41,175 nt of DNA from Candidatus Rokuibacteriota bacterium. GTDB taxonomy: Bacteria; Methylomirabilota; Methylomirabilia; Rokubacteriales; CSP1-6. Position numbers and translations under genes: made by a program. Location of the stretch: assembly GCA_003220225.1 (NCBI GenBank), contig QHRU01000110.1, positions 1-41,175 of the forward strand, written 5' to 3'. The stretch's first letter is position 1; each line of letters starts with the position of its first letter. Below are positions 1 through 7,450 of the stretch, in pieces. Under the pieces are notes generated by a model that made no database searches, had not been told where the DNA came from, and saw only the letters and a program-made list of their open reading frames with translations.

Positions 1-2607
1 CTGATCCCGACCATCTGCTTCAACTGCGAGGCGGCGTGCGGCCTCCTCGCGTACGTCGACAAGGACACGCTGAAGATCCAGAAGTTCGAGGGCAACCCGG
101 TGCATCCGGGCAGCCGCGGCCGCAACTGCGCCAAGGGCCCCGCCACCCTCAACCAGGTGCAGGATCCCGAGCGCATCCTCTATCCGATGCGCCGCGCGGG
201 GCCGCGCGGCGGCGGTCGATGGGAGCGCGTGACGTGGGACGACGCGCTCGACGACATCGCGGGACGGATCCGCAAGGCGCTCGTCGAGGGTCGCCAGAAG
301 GAAATCATGTATCACCTCGGCCGCCCCGGGCACGAGCTCGTCTACCTGCAGCGCGTGCTCCACGCGTGGGGGATCGACGGCCACAACAGCCACACCAACG
401 TCTGCTCGTCGAGCGCGCGCGCCGGCTACGCGTTCTGGCACGGCATGGACCGGCCCTCGCCGGATCACGCCAACGCGCGCTTCATCCTGCTGCTCTCCTC
501 GCACCTCGAGACCGGTCACTACTTCAACCCCCACGCGCAGCGGATCATCGAGGCCAAGATGCGCGGCGCGAAAGTCGCCGTCATCGACTCGCGCCTGTCC
601 AACACCGCCTCGATGGCCGACTACTGGCTCTCGCCGTGGCCGGGCACCGAAGCCGCGATCCTGCTGGCGATGGCGCGCATCCTGGTCGCCGAGCGCCGCT
701 ACGACCGTGCGTTCGTCGAGAAGTGGACGAACTGGGAGGAGTACCTGCGCGAGGAGCGGCCCGACCTGCCAGTAACCTTCGACGCGTTCCACACGGCGCT
801 CGAGGAGCTGTACGCGCCGTACACGCCGGAGTTCGCGGCGGAGGAGAGCGGGGTGGCGGCGGCCACGATCGTCGAGATCGCGCGCGCGATCGGGGCCGCG
901 GGCGGAGCGCTGGCCACCCACATCTGGCGCAACGCCGCGGCGGGCAATCTCGGCGGCTGGCAGGTGGCGCGCGCGCTCGAGCTGCTCGTGGTGCTGATGG
1001 GCGCCGTGTCCACGCCGGGGGGAACGGCGCCGAGCGCGTGGCACAAGGCGATCCCCGCGCCGCCCATGATGCCGCCGCCGAGCAAGGTGTGGAGCGAGCT
1101 GCTGATGCCGAGGGAGTATCCGCTGGCGTTCTTCGAGATGTCGTTCCTGCTCCCGCATTTTCTCCGCGAGGGCCGCGGCAAGCTCGCCATGTACTTCACG
1201 CGCGTCTACAACCCCGTGTGGACCAACCCCGACGGGATGTCCTGGATCGAGATGCTGACCGACGAGGCGAAGATCGAGCGCCACGTGTGTCTGTCGCCGG
1301 TGTGGAGCGAGACGGCGTGGTTCGCCGACTACGTGCTGCCGATGGGCCACGCCTCCGAGCGTCACGATCTCATGTCGCAGGAGACTCACGCGGCACGCTG
1401 GATCGGCTTCCGTCAGCCGGTGCTCCGGGTGGCGCTCGAGAAGCGCGGCCAGACGTTCGACCTCACGTGGCAGGCGCACGAGGCGGCTGGGCTTGGTCAA
1501 ATCTGGGAGGAGGACGAGTTCTGGATCGAGCTCTCCTGGCGCATCGATCCGGATGGTTCGCTCGGGATCCGAAAATATTTCGAATCGCCCTATCGCCCCG
1601 GTTCCAAGGTGCGCATCGAGGAGATCTACCGCTGGATCTTCGAGAACAGCGTGCCGGGGCTGCCGGAGGCGGCGAAGAAGGACGGCCTCACGCCGCTCGC
1701 CTACATGCGCAAGTACGGCGCATTCCTCGTCGAGGACAACGTCTACCGCACCTACGAGAGCCCCCAGGACAACGGCGTCGTCGTCGACGGCGTCGCGCGC
1801 GTCGGCTTCCCGACGCCCTCGCGCAAGCTGGAGTTCTTCAGCAAGACGCTCAAGGACTGGAAGTGGCCCGAGCACGCGGTGCCCGGCTACATCCGCAGCC
1901 ACGTCCACTGGTCGCACGTCGACCGCGCGAAGGGCGAGATGGTGCTGCTGCCGACGTTCCGGCTGCCCACGCTGATCCACACACGCTCGGGCAACGCCAA
2001 GTGGCTCTACGAGATCTCGCACACGAACCCGCTCTGGCTGCATCCGGAGGACGCCGCGCGCTTCGGCGTGACGACCGGCGAGCTGCTGAAGATCGCGACG
2101 GCCATCGGCTGGTTCGTCGACAAGGTCTGGGTGACCGAGGCCATCCGCCCCGGCGTCGTCGCGTGCTCGCACCACCTCGGGCGCTGGCGGCTGGCCGAGG
2201 CGGCGGGCGGCGAGCGGTGGTCCACCGCGCTCGTCGATCTCACGCGCGAGGCGCCCGGCAAGTGGCGGATGCGGCAGCTGCACGGCATCGAGCCGTTCGA
2301 GAGCGCCGATCCCGACTCCGCGCGCGTCTGGTGGGAGGACGCCGGCGTGCACCAGAACCTCACGTTCCCGGTCCAGCCGGATCCGATCAGCGGCCAGCAC
2401 TGCTGGCACCAGAAGGTGACCGTGTCGAGGCCCGGCCCCGACGAGCGCTACGGCGACGTCTTCGTGGACACCGACAAGTCGTTCGAGGTCTATCGCGAGT
2501 GGCTGGCGCTGGCGCGGCCGGCGCCGGGCCCGGGCAATCTGCGCCGACCGCTCTGGCTGCCGCGCGCCTTCAAGCCCGACCCGTCCGCGTTCCGGCTGGA
2601 GCCGTAG
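1..2607 (+). CDS. Molybdopterin oxidoreductase, DMSO-reductase superfamily (5' partial)
   Basis: Catalytic subunit of a complex iron-sulfur molybdoenzyme, cut by the window edge; the frame is open from base 1. The first visible residues hold the [4Fe-4S] signature C6-x2-C9-x3-C13-x29-C43, followed by the molybdopterin domains. A Cys at visible residue 135 (motif HTNVCSSSA) lies where this superfamily places its Mo ligand, which would fit the thiosulfate/polysulfide/arsenate reductase-like or PadB-like branches. The substrate cannot be assigned from sequence. The C-terminal third looks like the molydopterin dinucleotide-binding domain. Any twin-arginine signal would lie outside the window. It stops 47 bases before soxY on the same strand, which suggests a role in sulfur oxidation. 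It is not the sulfite-oxidase-type SoxC fold. Confidence 0.88.
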   Translation: MIPTICFNCEAACGLLAYVDKDTLKIQKFEGNPVHPGSRGRNCAKGPATLNQVQDPERILYPMRRAGPRGGGRWERVTWDDALDDIAGRIRKALVEGRQKEIMYHLGRPGHELVYLQRVLHAWGIDGHNSHTNVCSSSARAGYAFWHGMDRPSPDHANARFILLLSSHLETGHYFNPHAQRIIEAKMRGAKVAVIDSRLSNTASMADYWLSPWPGTEAAILLAMARILVAERRYDRAFVEKWTNWEEYLREERPDLPVTFDAFHTALEELYAPYTPEFAAEESGVAAATIVEIARAIGAAGGALATHIWRNAAAGNLGGWQVARALELLVVLMGAVSTPGGTAPSAWHKAIPAPPMMPPPSKVWSELLMPREYPLAFFEMSFLLPHFLREGRGKLAMYFTRVYNPVWTNPDGMSWIEMLTDEAKIERHVCLSPVWSETAWFADYVLPMGHASERHDLMSQETHAARWIGFRQPVLRVALEKRGQTFDLTWQAHEAAGLGQIWEEDEFWIELSWRIDPDGSLGIRKYFESPYRPGSKVRIEEIYRWIFENSVPGLPEAAKKDGLTPLAYMRKYGAFLVEDNVYRTYESPQDNGVVVDGVARVGFPTPSRKLEFFSKTLKDWKWPEHAVPGYIRSHVHWSHVDRAKGEMVLLPTFRLPTLIHTRSGNAKWLYEISHTNPLWLHPEDAARFGVTTGELLKIATAIGWFVDKVWVTEAIRPGVVACSHHLGRWRLAEAAGGERWSTALVDLTREAPGKWRMRQLHGIEPFESADPDSARVWWEDAGVHQNLTFPVQPDPISGQHCWHQKVTVSRPGPDERYGDVFVDTDKSFEVYREWLALARPAPGPGNLRRPLWLPRAFKPDPSAFRLEP

Positions 2608-2654: not shown

Positions 2655-3158
2655 ATGGCAGGAGCAATGACGCGTCGCTCGGCCCTCGGCACCTTCGGCG
2701 CCGTCGGCGCAGCGCTCGCGACGGGGACGCTGAGCATCGGGACGCCGGCCCGGGCTCAGGCCCAGGGACAGTCCCAGGCGCTCGGCCTGCAGGAGTCCGT
2801 GCAAGACGGGCTCAAGCGCGTGTTCGGCGGCCGCCCGATGAAGGACGGCGCCGCGCTGATCAAGCTCGACATCCCGCCCATCGCGGAGAACGGCGCGGTG
2901 GTGCCGGTCAGCGTCGAGGTCAACGCGCCGATGACGCCGGCCTCCCACGTGAAGAGCATCTGGATCGTCGCCGACAAGAACCGCATCCCCATCATCGCGA
3001 AGGCCACGCTCACGCCGGAGGCCGGCCAGGCGTTCGTCGGCGCCAACGTCCGCCTCGGCGAGACGACCGACGTCCGCGCCATCGTCGAGCAGAGCGACGG
3101 GACACTGCTGACGGCGAAGCGCGAGGTGAAGGTCACCGTCGGCGGCTGCGGGGGCTGA
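2655..3158 (+). CDS. soxY: SoxY, sulfur carrier subunit of the thiosulfate-oxidizing complex
   Basis: SoxY carries sulfur intermediates covalently on its C-terminal cysteine in the periplasm while SoxXA, SoxB and others act on them. The 167-residue protein ends in Gly-Gly-Cys-Gly-Gly, the diagnostic swinging-arm motif. Its N-terminus has MTRRSALG followed by a hydrophobic stretch and an Ala-rich cleavage region, a Tat-type signal as usual for SoxY. An AGGAGGG Shine-Dalgarno sequence sits 4-5 bases before the ATG. The soxZ start follows 4 bases after the stop, so the two partners are coupled. The family assignment is firm. Confidence 0.95.
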   Translation: MAGAMTRRSALGTFGAVGAALATGTLSIGTPARAQAQGQSQALGLQESVQDGLKRVFGGRPMKDGAALIKLDIPPIAENGAVVPVSVEVNAPMTPASHVKSIWIVADKNRIPIIAKATLTPEAGQAFVGANVRLGETTDVRAIVEQSDGTLLTAKREVKVTVGGCGG

Positions 3159-3161
3159 GGG

Positions 3162-3494
3162 ATGAGCGACATCGGCAAGATCCGCATCCGCGTGCCGTCC
3201 AACGTGAAGGCCGGCGACGTCGTCCGTGTCCGCTGCCTCGTCATCCATCCGATGGAGATCGTCCAGCGCGACGCGCAGGGCAAGATCATCGATCGCAACT
3301 ACAACTACATCACCCGGGTCACCGCCACCTACCTCGGCAAGCCGGTGGTCGCCTTCGACCTCACGCAGAGCGTGAGCGAGAATCCCGCGTTTTCCTTCGC
3401 GCTCAAGGCGACGGCGCCGGGCCCGGTGAAGGTCACCTTCGTCGACACGCACGGCGGCAAGTACGAGGCCACGGCCGACATCGCGTTCGCCTGA
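3162..3494 (+). CDS. soxZ: SoxZ, partner of SoxY
   Basis: This 110-residue protein has the SoxZ pattern: an Ig-like beta sandwich starting KIRIRVP and ending in the motif VTFVDTHGGKYEA. It has no signal peptide, as expected for SoxZ, which is co-exported with SoxY through the Tat signal of its partner. It forms the SoxYZ heterodimer whose SoxY cysteine is loaded by SoxXA. The gene is immediately downstream of soxY and 7 bases upstream of the SoxXA fusion gene. Confidence 0.95.
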   Translation: MSDIGKIRIRVPSNVKAGDVVRVRCLVIHPMEIVQRDAQGKIIDRNYNYITRVTATYLGKPVVAFDLTQSVSENPAFSFALKATAPGPVKVTFVDTHGGKYEATADIAFA

Positions 3495-3501
3495 GACGCT
3501 C

Positions 3502-4800
3502 GTGCGATCCCTCCCGCGGCTGCGCTGGGCCGCCCTCGCGCTCCTCGTCACCGGATGCGCGCTCGCCGCGCGCGAGTCCACGCCGGTCGCCTCGCCAGGC
3601 CGGACCTCGCGGGCGATCGCCGAGGCGCGCGGCGACGTGCGCGTGAGCCCCGACGGAAAGCGCACGGCCGTCCGATACGCGGGCTGGACGACGCGCGACT
3701 TCGGCGCGTTCCGCAGCTATGCCTACGACGACGTGCGCCCCGAGCCGCCGGTGCAGAAGGCCGTCATGCCCGTGGGCGTCGTGGGCGATCCCAAGAAAGG
3801 CCGCGCGCTGTTCCTCGACCGGCAGAAGGGCCCGTGCAGCGGCTGCCACCTGGTGCCGGGCGACGACGTGTGGCCCGCCGGCAGCGTCGGACCCGATCTC
3901 TCCACGCTCGCCGATCGCACGCTGCCCGACGCGTACCTCTACCAGCAGCTCTGGGATCCGCGCGTGACGTTTCCGGTCACCGTGATGCCGCCGTGGGGCG
4001 CGCAGGGCGTGTTCACGCCGGAGGAGATCGTCCACCTCGTCGCGTATCTGCAGACGCTGCACGGCCCGCCGCCGCCGGAGAAGGACGCCGACCGCAATCC
4101 CTTCACCCGCCGGAAGCCCACCGGCTTCGGCGACAATCTCGACCCGACCAACAACCCCGCCGTCGTCCGGGCCGAGGAGGCGCAAGCGCTCTGGAGCGCG
4201 CGCGGACCAAAGGGCAAGGCGTGCGCCGACTGTCACGCCGGCCTGCCGCAGACGGCGATGCGCGGCGTGGCCACCCGATACCCGCGTGTCGTTGCCGAGT
4301 ACGGCCGCGTGATGAGCCTCGAGGATTTCCTCTCCGTGCACGCGGCGGCGACCACCGGACGCGCGCTGCCGTCCGAGAGTGCCGCGAACCTCGACGTGAC
4401 ACTCCTCGTCAAGATGGCGTCCAACGGCCTGCCCGTGGCCGTGGACACGACGAGTCCGGCCGCGCGCGCCGCGATCGAGCGCGGCCGGGCGTCGTTCTAT
4501 CGGCGCGTGGGCGAGCGCAACCACGCGTGCGCCGACTGTCACACGCCGGATCACGGCGCCAACAAGTTCCTGGGCGGCCGGTTTCTCGGCGACGTCACGG
4601 GGGGCCTCACGCGGCACTCTCCGACGTGGCGCACGAGCCAGAACGACGTCTGGGACATGCGCAAGCGGATGCAGTGGTGCATGACGCCGCTCGGAGCCAA
4701 CATGCTGGCCGCCGACGCCGTGGAGTACGCGGAGCTCGAGCTCTACCTGACGACGTTCGACGTCGGCAAGCCGATCAACGCTCCCGGTATTCGTCATTAA
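3502..4800 (+). CDS. soxXA: SoxX-SoxA fusion, tri-haem c-type cytochrome lipoprotein
   Basis: SoxXA oxidatively couples thiosulfate to the SoxY cysteine. Here both subunits are in one 432-residue chain. The N-terminus (GTG start) is a lipoprotein signal with lipobox LVTGC, Cys at residue 19. A SoxX-like monohaem domain has CSGCH at 112-116 and a distal MPPWG methionine segment. After a Pro-rich linker (about residues 190-205) comes a SoxA-like dihaem domain with CADCH at 241-245 and 343-347. Cys393 in MQWCMTP matches the conserved SoxA active-site haem-ligand cysteine that becomes a persulfide. In most sulfur oxidizers soxX and soxA are separate genes. The gene follows soxZ directly. A frameshift artefact is unlikely because the frame is open throughout. 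No SoxB or SoxCD is visible in the window. Confidence 0.88.
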   Translation: MRSLPRLRWAALALLVTGCALAARESTPVASPGRTSRAIAEARGDVRVSPDGKRTAVRYAGWTTRDFGAFRSYAYDDVRPEPPVQKAVMPVGVVGDPKKGRALFLDRQKGPCSGCHLVPGDDVWPAGSVGPDLSTLADRTLPDAYLYQQLWDPRVTFPVTVMPPWGAQGVFTPEEIVHLVAYLQTLHGPPPPEKDADRNPFTRRKPTGFGDNLDPTNNPAVVRAEEAQALWSARGPKGKACADCHAGLPQTAMRGVATRYPRVVAEYGRVMSLEDFLSVHAAATTGRALPSESAANLDVTLLVKMASNGLPVAVDTTSPAARAAIERGRASFYRRVGERNHACADCHTPDHGANKFLGGRFLGDVTGGLTRHSPTWRTSQNDVWDMRKRMQWCMTPLGANMLAADAVEYAELELYLTTFDVGKPINAPGIRH

Positions 4801-4802
4801 TA

Positions 4803-5045
4803 GTGGGGGCCCCGACATGGCCCCCACACCCCCACACGCTCGTCGCGCCCCGGCGGAGCCGTGGCGCTCCTCGATCACGCGTGCGTCGTAGGGGCCCCGA
4901 CATGGCCCCCACACCCCCAAACGGTTCACCGCAGGCTCGCCTCGGCCGTCGAACGGCCTGCGGCTTCGCACTCCCACGCGCCCCGGCGGAGCCGTGGCGC
5001 TCCTCGATCACGCGTGCGTCGTAGGGGCCCCGACATGGCCCCCAC
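4803..5045. repeat. Intergenic palindromic repeat block with a perfect 68-bp direct repeat
   Basis: The gap after the SoxXA gene contains three palindromes with arms GGGGCC and GGCCCC around the loop CCGACAT, at 4803-4827, 4890-4912 and about 5024-5044. The segments 4845-4912 and 4978-5045 are identical over 68 bases (period 133) and include a second inverted repeat based on GCGCCCCGGC. The hairpins could end sox transcription, although no U-tract follows. Related palindromes recur at 7334-7450 and 26940-27041. Short open frames across the block are repeat-derived and not annotated as genes. Confidence 0.85.
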
Positions 5046-5063
5046 GTAGTACGATTACGCGCG

Positions 5064-5600
5064 ATGCGCTCGAGCCTCACCGCCGCGCTCGCGCTGGTCC
5101 TGCTCGCCGCCGCGCCGGTCGCCGGCGCGCCCCTCGACGATCTCCTCGCGGGGCTGAATCTGATCGCGCTCCACGGTGCCGCGCCGGCCGCGCTCGCCCT
5201 CGAGCGCCTCGCCGACGGCAAGACGGTTGCGCTGCCGCAGCTGCGCGGCCGGCCCGTCATCGTCTACTTCTGGGCCACCTGGTGACCGTATTGCGCGAGG
5301 GAGTTGCCCTCGGCCATCGAGCAGGTCCACCGTGAGTACGGCCCCCGCGGCCTCGTCGTGCTCGCCGTGAACATGGAAGAGTCGCGCGCGACGGTGGGCG
5401 CCTGGGCGCACCGCCACAAGCTCACCATGGACGTACTCCTCGACGTCACCGGCGACGTGAACGGCGCGTGGCACGTCACGCACTCGCCCATGGTCTTTGT
5501 CGTCGGGCGCGACGGCCGGCTGATCGCGCACGCGATCGGCAATCGCGACTGGACGGCGCCCGAAGGCCGCGCGCTGCTCGAGGCGCTCCTGGTGCCGTGA
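5064..5600 (+). CDS. TlpA/SoxW-like periplasmic thioredoxin, candidate selenoprotein (in-frame TGA at the CxxC position)
   Basis: Read through one TGA (5283-5285), the frame encodes a complete 178-residue TlpA-like thiol-disulfide protein: signal peptide (about 1-22), thioredoxin fold, active site WATW-U74-P-Y-C77 and a cis-proline segment HSPMVFVV. The TGA stands exactly where the first active-site Cys of WATWCPYC is expected, and homology continues without a frame change to the natural stop at 5598. The simplest reading is selenocysteine insertion giving a UxxC redox centre, supported by a hairpin just after the codon. The alternative is a TGC-to-TGA nonsense mutation or sequencing error. 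It lies between the sox genes and an SDH/FRD-like operon; its stop overlaps the next GTG start. A role in reducing Sox or cytochrome c thiols (SoxW/SoxS/CcmG-like) is inferred from context. Confidence 0.8.
5283..5314 (+). promoter_or_regulatory. Candidate bacterial SECIS element after the in-frame TGA
   Basis: Directly downstream of the TGA, CGAGGG (5296-5301) pairs perfectly with CCCTCG (5307-5312) around the five-base loop AGTTG. GC at 5293-5294 can extend the stem with GC at 5313-5314, leaving G5295 bulged. The loop starts 16 bases after the TGA and has G as its second base. These features agree with the general bacterial SECIS model: short apical loop with an early G, and a loop about 16-37 bases from the UGA. 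In G+C-rich DNA such hairpins can arise by chance, so this supports but does not prove Sec insertion. Confidence 0.55.
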
Positions 5601-7327
5601 TCGACGCGTTCGAGTGCGACGTCCTCGTCCTCGGCGCGGGCGGCGCCGGCCTCTGCGCCGCCCTGCATGCTGCCGACGCTTCACCCACGCTCTCGATTGC
5701 GGTCGTGGTCAAAGGGCTCTTCGGCCGCGCCGGCTGCACCCGCATGGTGCAAGGCGGCTACAACGCCGTGCTCACGCCCCCCGACTCGCTCGAGGCGCAT
5801 CTGACCGACACGCTCGACGGCGGCGGCTGGATCAACGACCAGGAGCTGGTGTGGCGGCTGGTGACGGAGGCGCCCGGTCGCGTGCTCGAGCTGGAGTCGC
5901 GCTACGGCTGTCTGTTCGACCGCAACGCCGAGGGCCGCATCCACCAGAAGCCGTTCGCCGGCCAGACCCACGACCGCACCGTCCACAAGGGCGACCTCAC
6001 CGGCATCGAGATCATGAATCGCCTCACCGAGCAGGCGCAGGCGCGCCCCTCGATCCGCGCCTTCGAGGAGTGCCGCGCCGTCGAGCTGCTGCGCGACGAC
6101 GCCGGCCGCGCGGCCGGCGCGCTGGCGCTGGACGCGCGCGCGGGCCGTTTTTTCGCGCTCCGCGCGCGGGCGACGCTGCTGGCGATGGGCGGCGGGCCGA
6201 CCATGTACCGCGTGATCGCGTGCTCGGCCGACAAGGCGGCCGACGGCATCGCTCTCGCGTACCGCGCCGGCCTGCCGCTGCGCGACATGGAGATGATCCA
6301 GTTTCATCCCACGGGCCTCGTGATCCCCGGCTCGCTGATGACCGGCGCCCTGCTCGAGGAGGGCCTGCGCGGTGCCGGCGGGCAGTTGCGCAACGGCCTC
6401 GGCGAGCGGTTCATGGCGCGCTACGACGCCGCGCGTATGGAGCGCTCCACGCGCGACCTCGTCTCGCGCGCCTCGTTCCTCGAGGTGAGCCAGGGCCGCG
6501 GCACGCCCAACGGCGGCGTCTGGATCGACGTCTCCCACCTCGGCGCCGAGGTCGTGGAGCGCAACTTCCGCGGCATGGTACGGCGCTGCCGCGACTTCGG
6601 CCGCGACCTCGCGCGCGGGCCGGTGGAGGTCGGGCCCACCGCGCACTTCATGATGGGCGGTGTCGTCGTCGATCCCGACTGCCGCACGGCGATCGAGGGC
6701 CTCTTCGCCGCCGGCGAGGACACGGGCGGTGTGCACGGCGCCAACCGCCTGGGCGGCAACGGCGTCGCCGAGTCGACCGTGTTCGGCGGCATCGCCGGCG
6801 ACGTGATGGCGGCCTTCGTCGCGGGCCGCCCGATGCCGCGCGTGAGCGAGGCGGCGCTCGAGGCCGCGGCCGCGCGCTGCGCGGCGCCGCTCGGCCGTGG
6901 AGGCGGCGCGGAGGTCTACGCGATCCAGCGGGAGCTGCGCGACGTCATGTGGGAGCGCGCGGGGCTCGTGCGCGATGCCGAGGGCCTCGGCGTGGCCGCG
7001 GCCACGCTCGAGCGCCTGACCGAGCGCCTCGGCGTGGTGGGCGTGCCGGGCCACGGGCCGTTGAACACCGCGTGGCAGGACTGGCTCAACCTCGACAGCC
7101 AGCTGACGGCGGCGCGACTGATCGTGGCGAGCGCGCTCGCCCGCCGCGAGAGCCGCGGCGCGCACTGGCGGCGGGACTTCCCGGTGCCGGCGGCGACGCC
7201 GCCGGTGTGCGTGCGCGTGCAGGGGCGCGACGGCGCACCGCTCGTCTGGGCGGAGCCCGTGGCCATGACGCGCGCACGGCCGCCGGCCGGAGCGCGGCGT
7301 CCGGTGGCCGTCGAGATCGGGGACTGA
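5597..7327 (+). CDS. FrdA/SdhA-like flavoprotein lacking the flavinylation histidine
   Basis: A 576-residue FAD-dependent succinate dehydrogenase/fumarate reductase-type flavoprotein. The start is a GTG overlapping the thioredoxin stop. It has the dinucleotide motif GAGGAG (13-18), the substrate and catalytic motifs FHPTG, EEGLRGAGG, TAHFMMGG and ANRLGGNG, and the C-terminal RRESRGAH segment. At the position of the histidine that binds FAD covalently in SdhA/FrdA it has Cys47 (GCTRMVQGG), so the FAD may be non-covalent. The usual DRTGH-type segment is changed to KGDLTGIEI. It diverges clearly from the second flavoprotein at 21718. Partner subunits are probably at 9920 (anchor) and 11488 (iron-sulfur). 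Whether it oxidizes succinate, reduces fumarate or handles another dicarboxylate cannot be told. Confidence 0.88.
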   Translation: MIDAFECDVLVLGAGGAGLCAALHAADASPTLSIAVVVKGLFGRAGCTRMVQGGYNAVLTPPDSLEAHLTDTLDGGGWINDQELVWRLVTEAPGRVLELESRYGCLFDRNAEGRIHQKPFAGQTHDRTVHKGDLTGIEIMNRLTEQAQARPSIRAFEECRAVELLRDDAGRAAGALALDARAGRFFALRARATLLAMGGGPTMYRVIACSADKAADGIALAYRAGLPLRDMEMIQFHPTGLVIPGSLMTGALLEEGLRGAGGQLRNGLGERFMARYDAARMERSTRDLVSRASFLEVSQGRGTPNGGVWIDVSHLGAEVVERNFRGMVRRCRDFGRDLARGPVEVGPTAHFMMGGVVVDPDCRTAIEGLFAAGEDTGGVHGANRLGGNGVAESTVFGGIAGDVMAAFVAGRPMPRVSEAALEAAAARCAAPLGRGGGAEVYAIQRELRDVMWERAGLVRDAEGLGVAAATLERLTERLGVVGVPGHGPLNTAWQDWLNLDSQLTAARLIVASALARRESRGAHWRRDFPVPAATPPVCVRVQGRDGAPLVWAEPVAMTRARPPAGARRPVAVEIGD

Positions 7328-7333
7328 ATACAT

Positions 7334-7450
7334 GGGGGGCCCCGACATGGCCCCCCAACCCCCCCCCCGACGTTCGGAGCGCCCCGGCAAAGCCGGGTCG
7401 CTCCTCTAAAACCCCTAACGCTCGGAAGCGCCCCGGGAAACCCGTGGCGC
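7334..7450. repeat. Intergenic palindromic repeats (GGGGGGCC family)
   Basis: Three inverted repeats fill the gap after the flavoprotein gene. At 7334-7356, GGGGGGCC and GGCCCCCC flank CCGACAT. At 7376-7404, GGAGCG-C-CCCGGC pairs with GCCGGG-T-CGCTCC around a short A-rich loop and is followed by TCTAAAA. At 7428-7450 there is a GCGCC-based stem. The middle hairpin and its flanks are almost identical to 27001-27046. They may act as transcription terminators or attenuators, but the repeat-family character is the direct observation. Confidence 0.8.

Follow-up and report, generated by a model that had tools for sequence, protein, structure and literature searches.

SoxXA starts bacterial thiosulfate oxidation and is normally made of two periplasmic proteins. 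The DNA analysed here, hereafter the window, is a 41,175-nt stretch from a Candidatus Rokuibacteriota bacterium, and in one of its frames a preliminary description had recognised SoxX and SoxA fused into a single tri-haem lipoprotein. This raises the questions of whether the fusion is real or a product of assembly, whether the two halves are what they seem, and what a single-chain enzyme of this kind would do. We conclude that the gene product is very probably a single-chain SoxXA cytochrome, with a predicted membrane anchor, that loads thiosulfate onto SoxYZ. The features behind this reading are collected in Table 1.

Table 1 Features of the fused gene and of the two genes ahead of it (positions in the window)
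Feature	Position	Strand	Evidence
SoxY with GGCGG end	2655..3158	+	TIGR04488, 145.6 bits (cut-off 125)
SoxZ, 7 bp ahead of the fusion	3162..3494	+	TIGR04490, 80.1 bits (cut-off 76)
Fused SoxX-SoxA with three CxxCH haem sites, 432 aa	3502..4800	+	Families, PDB sequences, conservation, predicted structure
N-terminal signal with lipobox VTG-Cys19, predicted lipid anchor	3502..3558	+	Cys in 30/32 rows
SoxX domain, residues 83-187	3748..4062	+	NCBIfam; VIA-align 2oz1_D Z 11.9, 1h32_B Z 11.6
SoxX haem motif CSGCH, residues 112-116	3835..3849	+	C112, C115 and H116 in 32/32 rows
Met162 (MPPW), predicted distal ligand of the SoxX haem	3985..3987	+	Met in 32/32 rows; ligand role putative
Interdomain linker, residues 188-203	4063..4110	+	Alignment, VIA-align boundaries
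SoxA domain, residues 204-432	4111..4797	+	NCBIfam, PDB sequence match, 1h31_A Z 19.5
SoxA haem 1 motif CADCH, residues 241-245	4222..4236	+	Translation, SoxA-domain alignment
His280, presumed haem-1 distal position (Cys in standalone SoxA)	4339..4341	+	His in 36/36 fused-His rows
SoxA active-site haem motif CADCH, residues 343-347	4528..4542	+	Translation, SoxA-domain alignment
Arg389-x-x-x-Cys393 (RMQWC), active-site Arg and Cys ligand	4666..4680	+	55/55 rows; role by analogy (available part of PMC4423706)

A single frame with a SoxX and a SoxA domain

The gene starts with GTG and encodes 432 amino acids without an internal stop; the open frame comprises 456 codons, about 24 codons beyond the protein length, and the placement of the start codon is a prediction. 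Every position given in the preliminary description, namely Cys19, CSGCH at 112-116, CADCH at 241-245 and 343-347, and Cys393, was reproduced in the translation. The SoxX model (NCBIfam TIGR04485) matches residues 108-186 with 69 bits at a cut-off of 61, the SoxA model (TIGR04484) matches residues 219-431 with 145.5 bits at a cut-off of 110, and because both exceed their cut-offs in one frame the architecture is not a matter of chance. Pfam places a SoxA/TsdA and a cytochrome c domain in the frame. The PDB sequence that matches the frame best is SoxA of 1h31, aligned to residues 198-431 (E 2.7e-22), and the SoxX chain from that entry aligns to residues 93-166 (E 1e-07).

An AlphaFold2 model built on 32 aligned fused proteins has moderate confidence (mean pLDDT 66.9, pTM 0.64), and its weak stretches include 337-347 and 351-365 (pLDDT under 50) as well as 395-401. 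Foldseek ranks 1-4 are SoxA chains (1h31_A, E 3.3e-13) and ranks 14-19 are SoxX chains. In the fold comparison with solved SoxAX complexes, VIA-align placed residues 83-187 on SoxX (Z 11.9 for 2oz1_D and 11.6 for 1h32_B, with the diheme cytochrome c 7zs0-7zs2 next at about 11 and cytochromes c at 8-9) and residues 204-432 on SoxA 1h31_A (Z 19.5). The placements, with each domain taken separately, therefore match the two halves to the two subunits of one known complex. The outcome named beforehand as fatal to the idea, that residues 190-432 prove unlike SoxA, did not occur, and the order of SoxX then SoxA with three haem sites is upheld by families, PDB sequences, predicted structure and conservation.

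Arg389 and Cys393 are kept in 55/55 rows of the SoxA-domain alignment, a count that leaves out L074, a would-be exception that by eye is without the Arg four residues ahead of the Cys and has a Glu near the haem-1 position. In TsdA the corresponding residues are Arg119 and Cys123, according to the available part of PMC4423706.

The kinship with TsdA suggests another identity, a TsdBA-type fused thiosulfate dehydrogenase that yields tetrathionate and is not a SoxXA. The Pfam domain is named SoxA/TsdA, and 5lo9 stands at Foldseek rank 5 (E 5.5e-05) with TsdA chains next, but SoxA chains are ahead by orders of magnitude in the same ranking, the SoxA and SoxX equivalogs are both above cut-off, and soxYZ lies immediately upstream. 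We consider this identity highly improbable and rejected it on fold rank and family models.

Recurrence of the fusion and the question of an assembly join

A search for related loci, which the preliminary description had called for, returned 34 loci on contigs of other genomes; 33 have the fusion, several of these contigs being truncated, frameshifted or with N near the N-terminus, and L036 has ordinary SoxA genes instead. The taxon labels are mostly Rokubacteria, with Nitrospirae (L022), Betaproteobacteria (L028), Gammaproteobacteria (L029) and Rhodospirillales, Rhodospirillaceae or Alphaproteobacteria (L030-L033) making up the rest. The copies in L003 and L020 share 82-84% identity with the window protein, and comparisons of the window with L003, L020 and L004 gave dN values lower than dS for each of the SoxX part, linker and SoxA part. 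Alignment A1 left out 7 of 38 fused frames (L011 (minus strand), L016, L019, L021, L023, L026 and L027) for truncation, an N-run, a missing start or an N-terminal frameshift.

Across the window's phylum, the fused profile matched in 39/95 genomes at E <= 1e-20, and a single frame spans both domains in 34/57 genomes of the window's family and in 0/38 elsewhere in the phylum; the surveyed genomes overlap with the 33 fused loci and are not separate evidence. Two fused copies occur in 7 of these 34 genomes, and G042, G063 and G071 hold only pieces of the fusion. In a sample of the class of L029, 11/369 genomes match (E <= 1e-30), with six fused frames (L051-L055 and L057). A sample of the class of L033 gave matches in 35/385 genomes and two frames that span both domains (L071 and L072); among the 33 matches in that class without a full-length fusion, ten loci were read and none has three haem motifs in one frame. 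The survey indicates that Sox operons of this type are frequent in a single family of the Rokubacteria phylum, for which many of the record titles point to soil and groundwater.

Some genomes carry another fused SoxXA that shares 56-58% identity with the window protein (minus strand of L009, L012, L013 and L014; L025 at 4959-6278). It lies divergently oriented near the first copy and forms its own subclade in the SoxA-domain tree.

If separate soxX and soxA genes had been joined by an assembly or sequencing error, a missing stop could mimic a fusion. The draft genome consists of 167 contigs, of which the window is one, and standalone SoxX and SoxA lie on another of them; both facts would suit such an error. 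However, the fusion is found in 33 other contigs and 34/57 family genomes, it is present in Alpha- and Gammaproteobacteria, and the fused SoxA domain forms a clade separate from standalone SoxA. The chance of a join is negligible, and we rejected it because independent genomes carry the same fusion.

Descent and the haem-1 residue

The SoxA-domain tree comprises 55 rows, 38 fused and 17 standalone. Thirty-six fused rows form one clade (support 100/99), apart from the 17 standalone SoxA and two other fusions. These two, L055 (G443) and L057 (G419) from the class of L029, are placed among the standalone rows, although they are, like L052, long rows whose tree positions the program flagged as unsure. 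The fusion therefore probably arose more than once.

In diheme SoxA, a Cys is the usual distal ligand of haem 1, but it is not obligatory for SoxA, 3oa8_A having no first CxxCH at all. The residue-280 position holds His in 36/36 rows of the fused clade, whereas standalone SoxA has Cys in 15/17 rows and Ser in 2/17, with L074 again outside the counts; L055 and L057 carry the usual Cys. The window protein thus has His280 where a diheme SoxA is expected to have a Cys near haem 1, and the 1h31 sequence aligned to this stretch reads NACR, with a Cys that we take to be the haem-1 ligand in R. sulfidophilum SoxA. Judged from the alignment, the exchange should make haem 1 bis-His instead of His/Cys, a putative coordination.

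Predicted membrane anchor

The lipoprotein reading comes from the sequence. The lipobox column has Cys in 30/32 aligned rows, L022 and L029 being those without it, and the anchor is predicted to be usual in the Rokubacteria and Rhodospirillales forms. It does not appear to be a property of the whole clade: the strict pattern [LVI][ASTVI][GAS]C fits only 7 of the 30 rows, and the distant fused proteins L052, L053 and L072 have signal-like N-termini without a lipobox (by eye). Lipidation of Cys19 is a prediction.

The protein could instead be a soluble periplasmic fused SoxXA in which signal peptidase II leaves Cys19 unprocessed. The same exceptions speak for it, namely L022 and L029 without the Cys, L052, L053 and L072 without a lipobox and the strict pattern in just 7/30, and because Cys-less fused relatives exist the enzyme can work without an anchor. 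In the other direction, 30/32 rows keep the Cys in one column with a small residue ahead of it while the surrounding N-terminus varies freely. We regard a soluble form as unlikely and keep the anchored chain as our reading; that the fusion sets its stoichiometry and its placement at the membrane is what we infer.

Operon context and other Sox genes of the genome

The gaps between soxY and soxZ and between soxZ and the fusion are 3 bp and 7 bp. Nearly every locus with sufficient sequence has soxY and soxZ immediately upstream of the fusion, with the exceptions of L008 (partial soxZ only), L027 (which begins inside the fusion) and L028 (neither gene); L025 was oriented by its divergent copy, so that its soxYZ lies on the other strand. 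Most loci with enough sequence have soxB directly after the fusion, as in L004 (TIGR04486, 777.7 bits). This operon soxB is missing in the window, L003 and L020, three loci that group in the SoxA-domain tree, and it was also not seen after the fusion in L008 and L028.

The genome of the window does encode SoxB, on contig C159 (838.5 bits), and SoxC, on contig C99 (581 bits), both above cut-off, and the genomes of L003 and L020 have a SoxB as well. With soxYZ adjacent to the fusion and a soxB on another contig, outside the operon, the genome has the marks of a Sox thiosulfate oxidation system. The C159 SoxB, the only one above cut-off, shares 85-87% identity with its counterparts in the L003 and L020 genomes, against about 57% with the SoxB proteins encoded in the operons; therefore, the genus seems to have lost the operon soxB while keeping another lineage. 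We assume that the fusion is paired with the C159 SoxB. Contig C80 of the same genome holds a standalone SoxA, a SoxZ, an AACIE-type SoxY and the end of a SoxX. Its SoxY (L044 8637-9113, genome G000) belongs to the AACIE-arm type (TIGR04487, 212.9 bits) and not to the GGCGG type. Given this standalone cluster, the fusion need not be the sole SoxXA of the genome.

The flanks of the operon show further features. Upstream, a molybdopterin oxidoreductase gene (window 100-2607 (+)) is apparently cut by the contig start and scores far below every equivalog cut-off; such a gene adjoins soxYZ-soxXA in several Rokubacteria loci. Downstream, the place that soxB takes in relatives is occupied in the window by a spacer of about 250 bases (4803-5056 (+)). 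It contains GGGGCCCCGACATGGCCCCCAC in three exact copies, and a perfect 69-nt repeat includes two of these. There is a fourth near-copy at 7336-7357, similar repeats occur in the same gap of L020, and the repeats may be a trace of soxB loss. The gene for a fumarate reductase/succinate dehydrogenase-like flavoprotein (5597-7327 (+)) starts at about the end of the TlpA gene described below, and many relatives likewise have it downstream of their Sox operon.

The operon leaves room for a substrate other than thiosulfate or a partner other than SoxB, such that in this genus the fusion would load SoxYZ as part of a different route, one example being joint action with the upstream molybdopterin oxidoreductase (100-2607). 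The missing operon soxB in the window, L003 and L020, the different lineage of the genomic SoxB and the molybdopterin gene adjoining the operon in several loci are in line with such a route. Against it stand the SoxB genes in all three genomes, the soxB directly after the fusion in most relatives, and the intact active-site residues. We judge this other route to be rather improbable, and a membrane-anchored SoxXA that conjugates thiosulfate to SoxYZ remains the most likely reading.

A probable selenocysteine TlpA gene downstream

Shortly after the fusion, a TlpA/ResA-like gene (5064-5600 (+)) reads W-TGA-P-Y-C, with an in-frame TGA at 5283-5285 that likely encodes selenocysteine. The same TGA is present in 10/10 TlpA motif matches from the window and loci L002-L036, and an invariant CGAGGGAGTTGCCCTCG comes after it; TlpA matches in L009, L014 and L017 do not fit the TGA motif. 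The genome encodes SelB (372 bits) and tRNA-Sec (69.7 bits), both on contig C5. The folding energy of the putative stem-loop is no better than that of shuffled sequences (z -0.57), which speaks against a claim based on energy, and the support comes from the invariance. A UGC-type TlpA is listed in a 2026 selenoproteome review, as is a Methylomirabilota MAG that has 63 selenoprotein genes, and a U-P-x-C TlpA was not found in the available part of that review (PMC13188914).

Proposed mechanism

According to the available part of PMC4423706, SoxAX conjugates thiosulfate to a SoxYZ Cys, SoxA has a Cys-ligated active-site haem, and substrate is bound by the Arg that is invariant in TsdA and SoxA; for R. 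sulfidophilum SoxAX, it gives a haem-haem edge-to-edge distance of 10.7 A. The precursor would be exported, fitted with three haems c and lipidated at Cys19, and so be kept periplasmic on the membrane. Thiosulfate would bind at the Cys393-ligated haem, be joined oxidatively to Cys393 and then be passed on to the C-terminal Cys of SoxY on SoxYZ, and the SoxX haem would hand two electrons on to an acceptor in the membrane or the periplasm. SoxB, encoded by the next gene in most relatives and here probably by the soxB on another contig, would then free sulfate. The fusion would keep donor and acceptor haems at 1:1, and the anchor would keep the enzyme close to its electron acceptor.

Haem 1 of classical SoxA is thought to be idle. 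A bolder and, in our view, doubtful proposal is that the fusion is a separately evolved SoxXA of single origin, a single lipid-anchored chain with a bis-His haem 1. If true, haem 1 would take part in or tune the passage of electrons, at the membrane surface, from the Cys-ligated active-site haem on to that of SoxX. It would do so in step with the selenocysteine TlpA of the same gene cluster, which would reduce or repair the active-site Cys of the fusion or SoxY.

Comparison with known systems

The SoxX-SoxA architecture is already in print: the available part of PMC8877833 describes a Halorhodospira protein in which SoxA carries SoxX at its N-terminus. The likeness is close, in that SoxX lies N-terminal to a diheme SoxA in one triheme protein. 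In contrast to the window genome, Halorhodospira are phototrophic Gammaproteobacteria, and in that part of PMC8877833 neither a lipobox nor a change of haem ligand is described. No Halorhodospira sequence was identified among the genomes covered, and PufM was above cut-off in 0/8 genomes with a fusion. The part of the open-licence literature that was examined yielded no SoxXA fusion outside Halorhodospira, and no report of a fusion in Rokubacteria or of the His change. The fused clade looks like a new and distinct lineage, with the Halorhodospira fusion compared by description only.

The SoxXA proteins of Rhodovulum sulfidophilum (1h31/1h32) and Paracoccus pantotrophus (2c1d) resemble the window protein in both domains, by sequence and by predicted fold. 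They consist of two chains, whereas here and in the relatives SoxX and SoxA share one frame, in the window with a predicted lipid anchor, and the Cys of NACR near the haem-1 position of 1h31 is matched by His280. The diheme SoxAX type represented by 3oa8 has the SoxA fold in common (VIA-align Z 18.0), but 3oa8_A is without the first CxxCH, which the window protein has. TsdA and TsdBA (4wq7, 5lo9) contain a related catalytic cytochrome domain, and TsdBA is an example, within this superfamily, of a catalytic domain fused to its electron acceptor (available part of PMC6879331); they rank lower by fold, and the window protein has soxYZ next to it. SoxAX has been called "highly recalcitrant to mechanistic analysis" (PMC4423706, in the part available). 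A natural single-chain enzyme with a 1:1 ratio and an altered haem-1 residue is a useful comparison for SoxAX, as it separates the contributions of heterodimer assembly and of haem 1.
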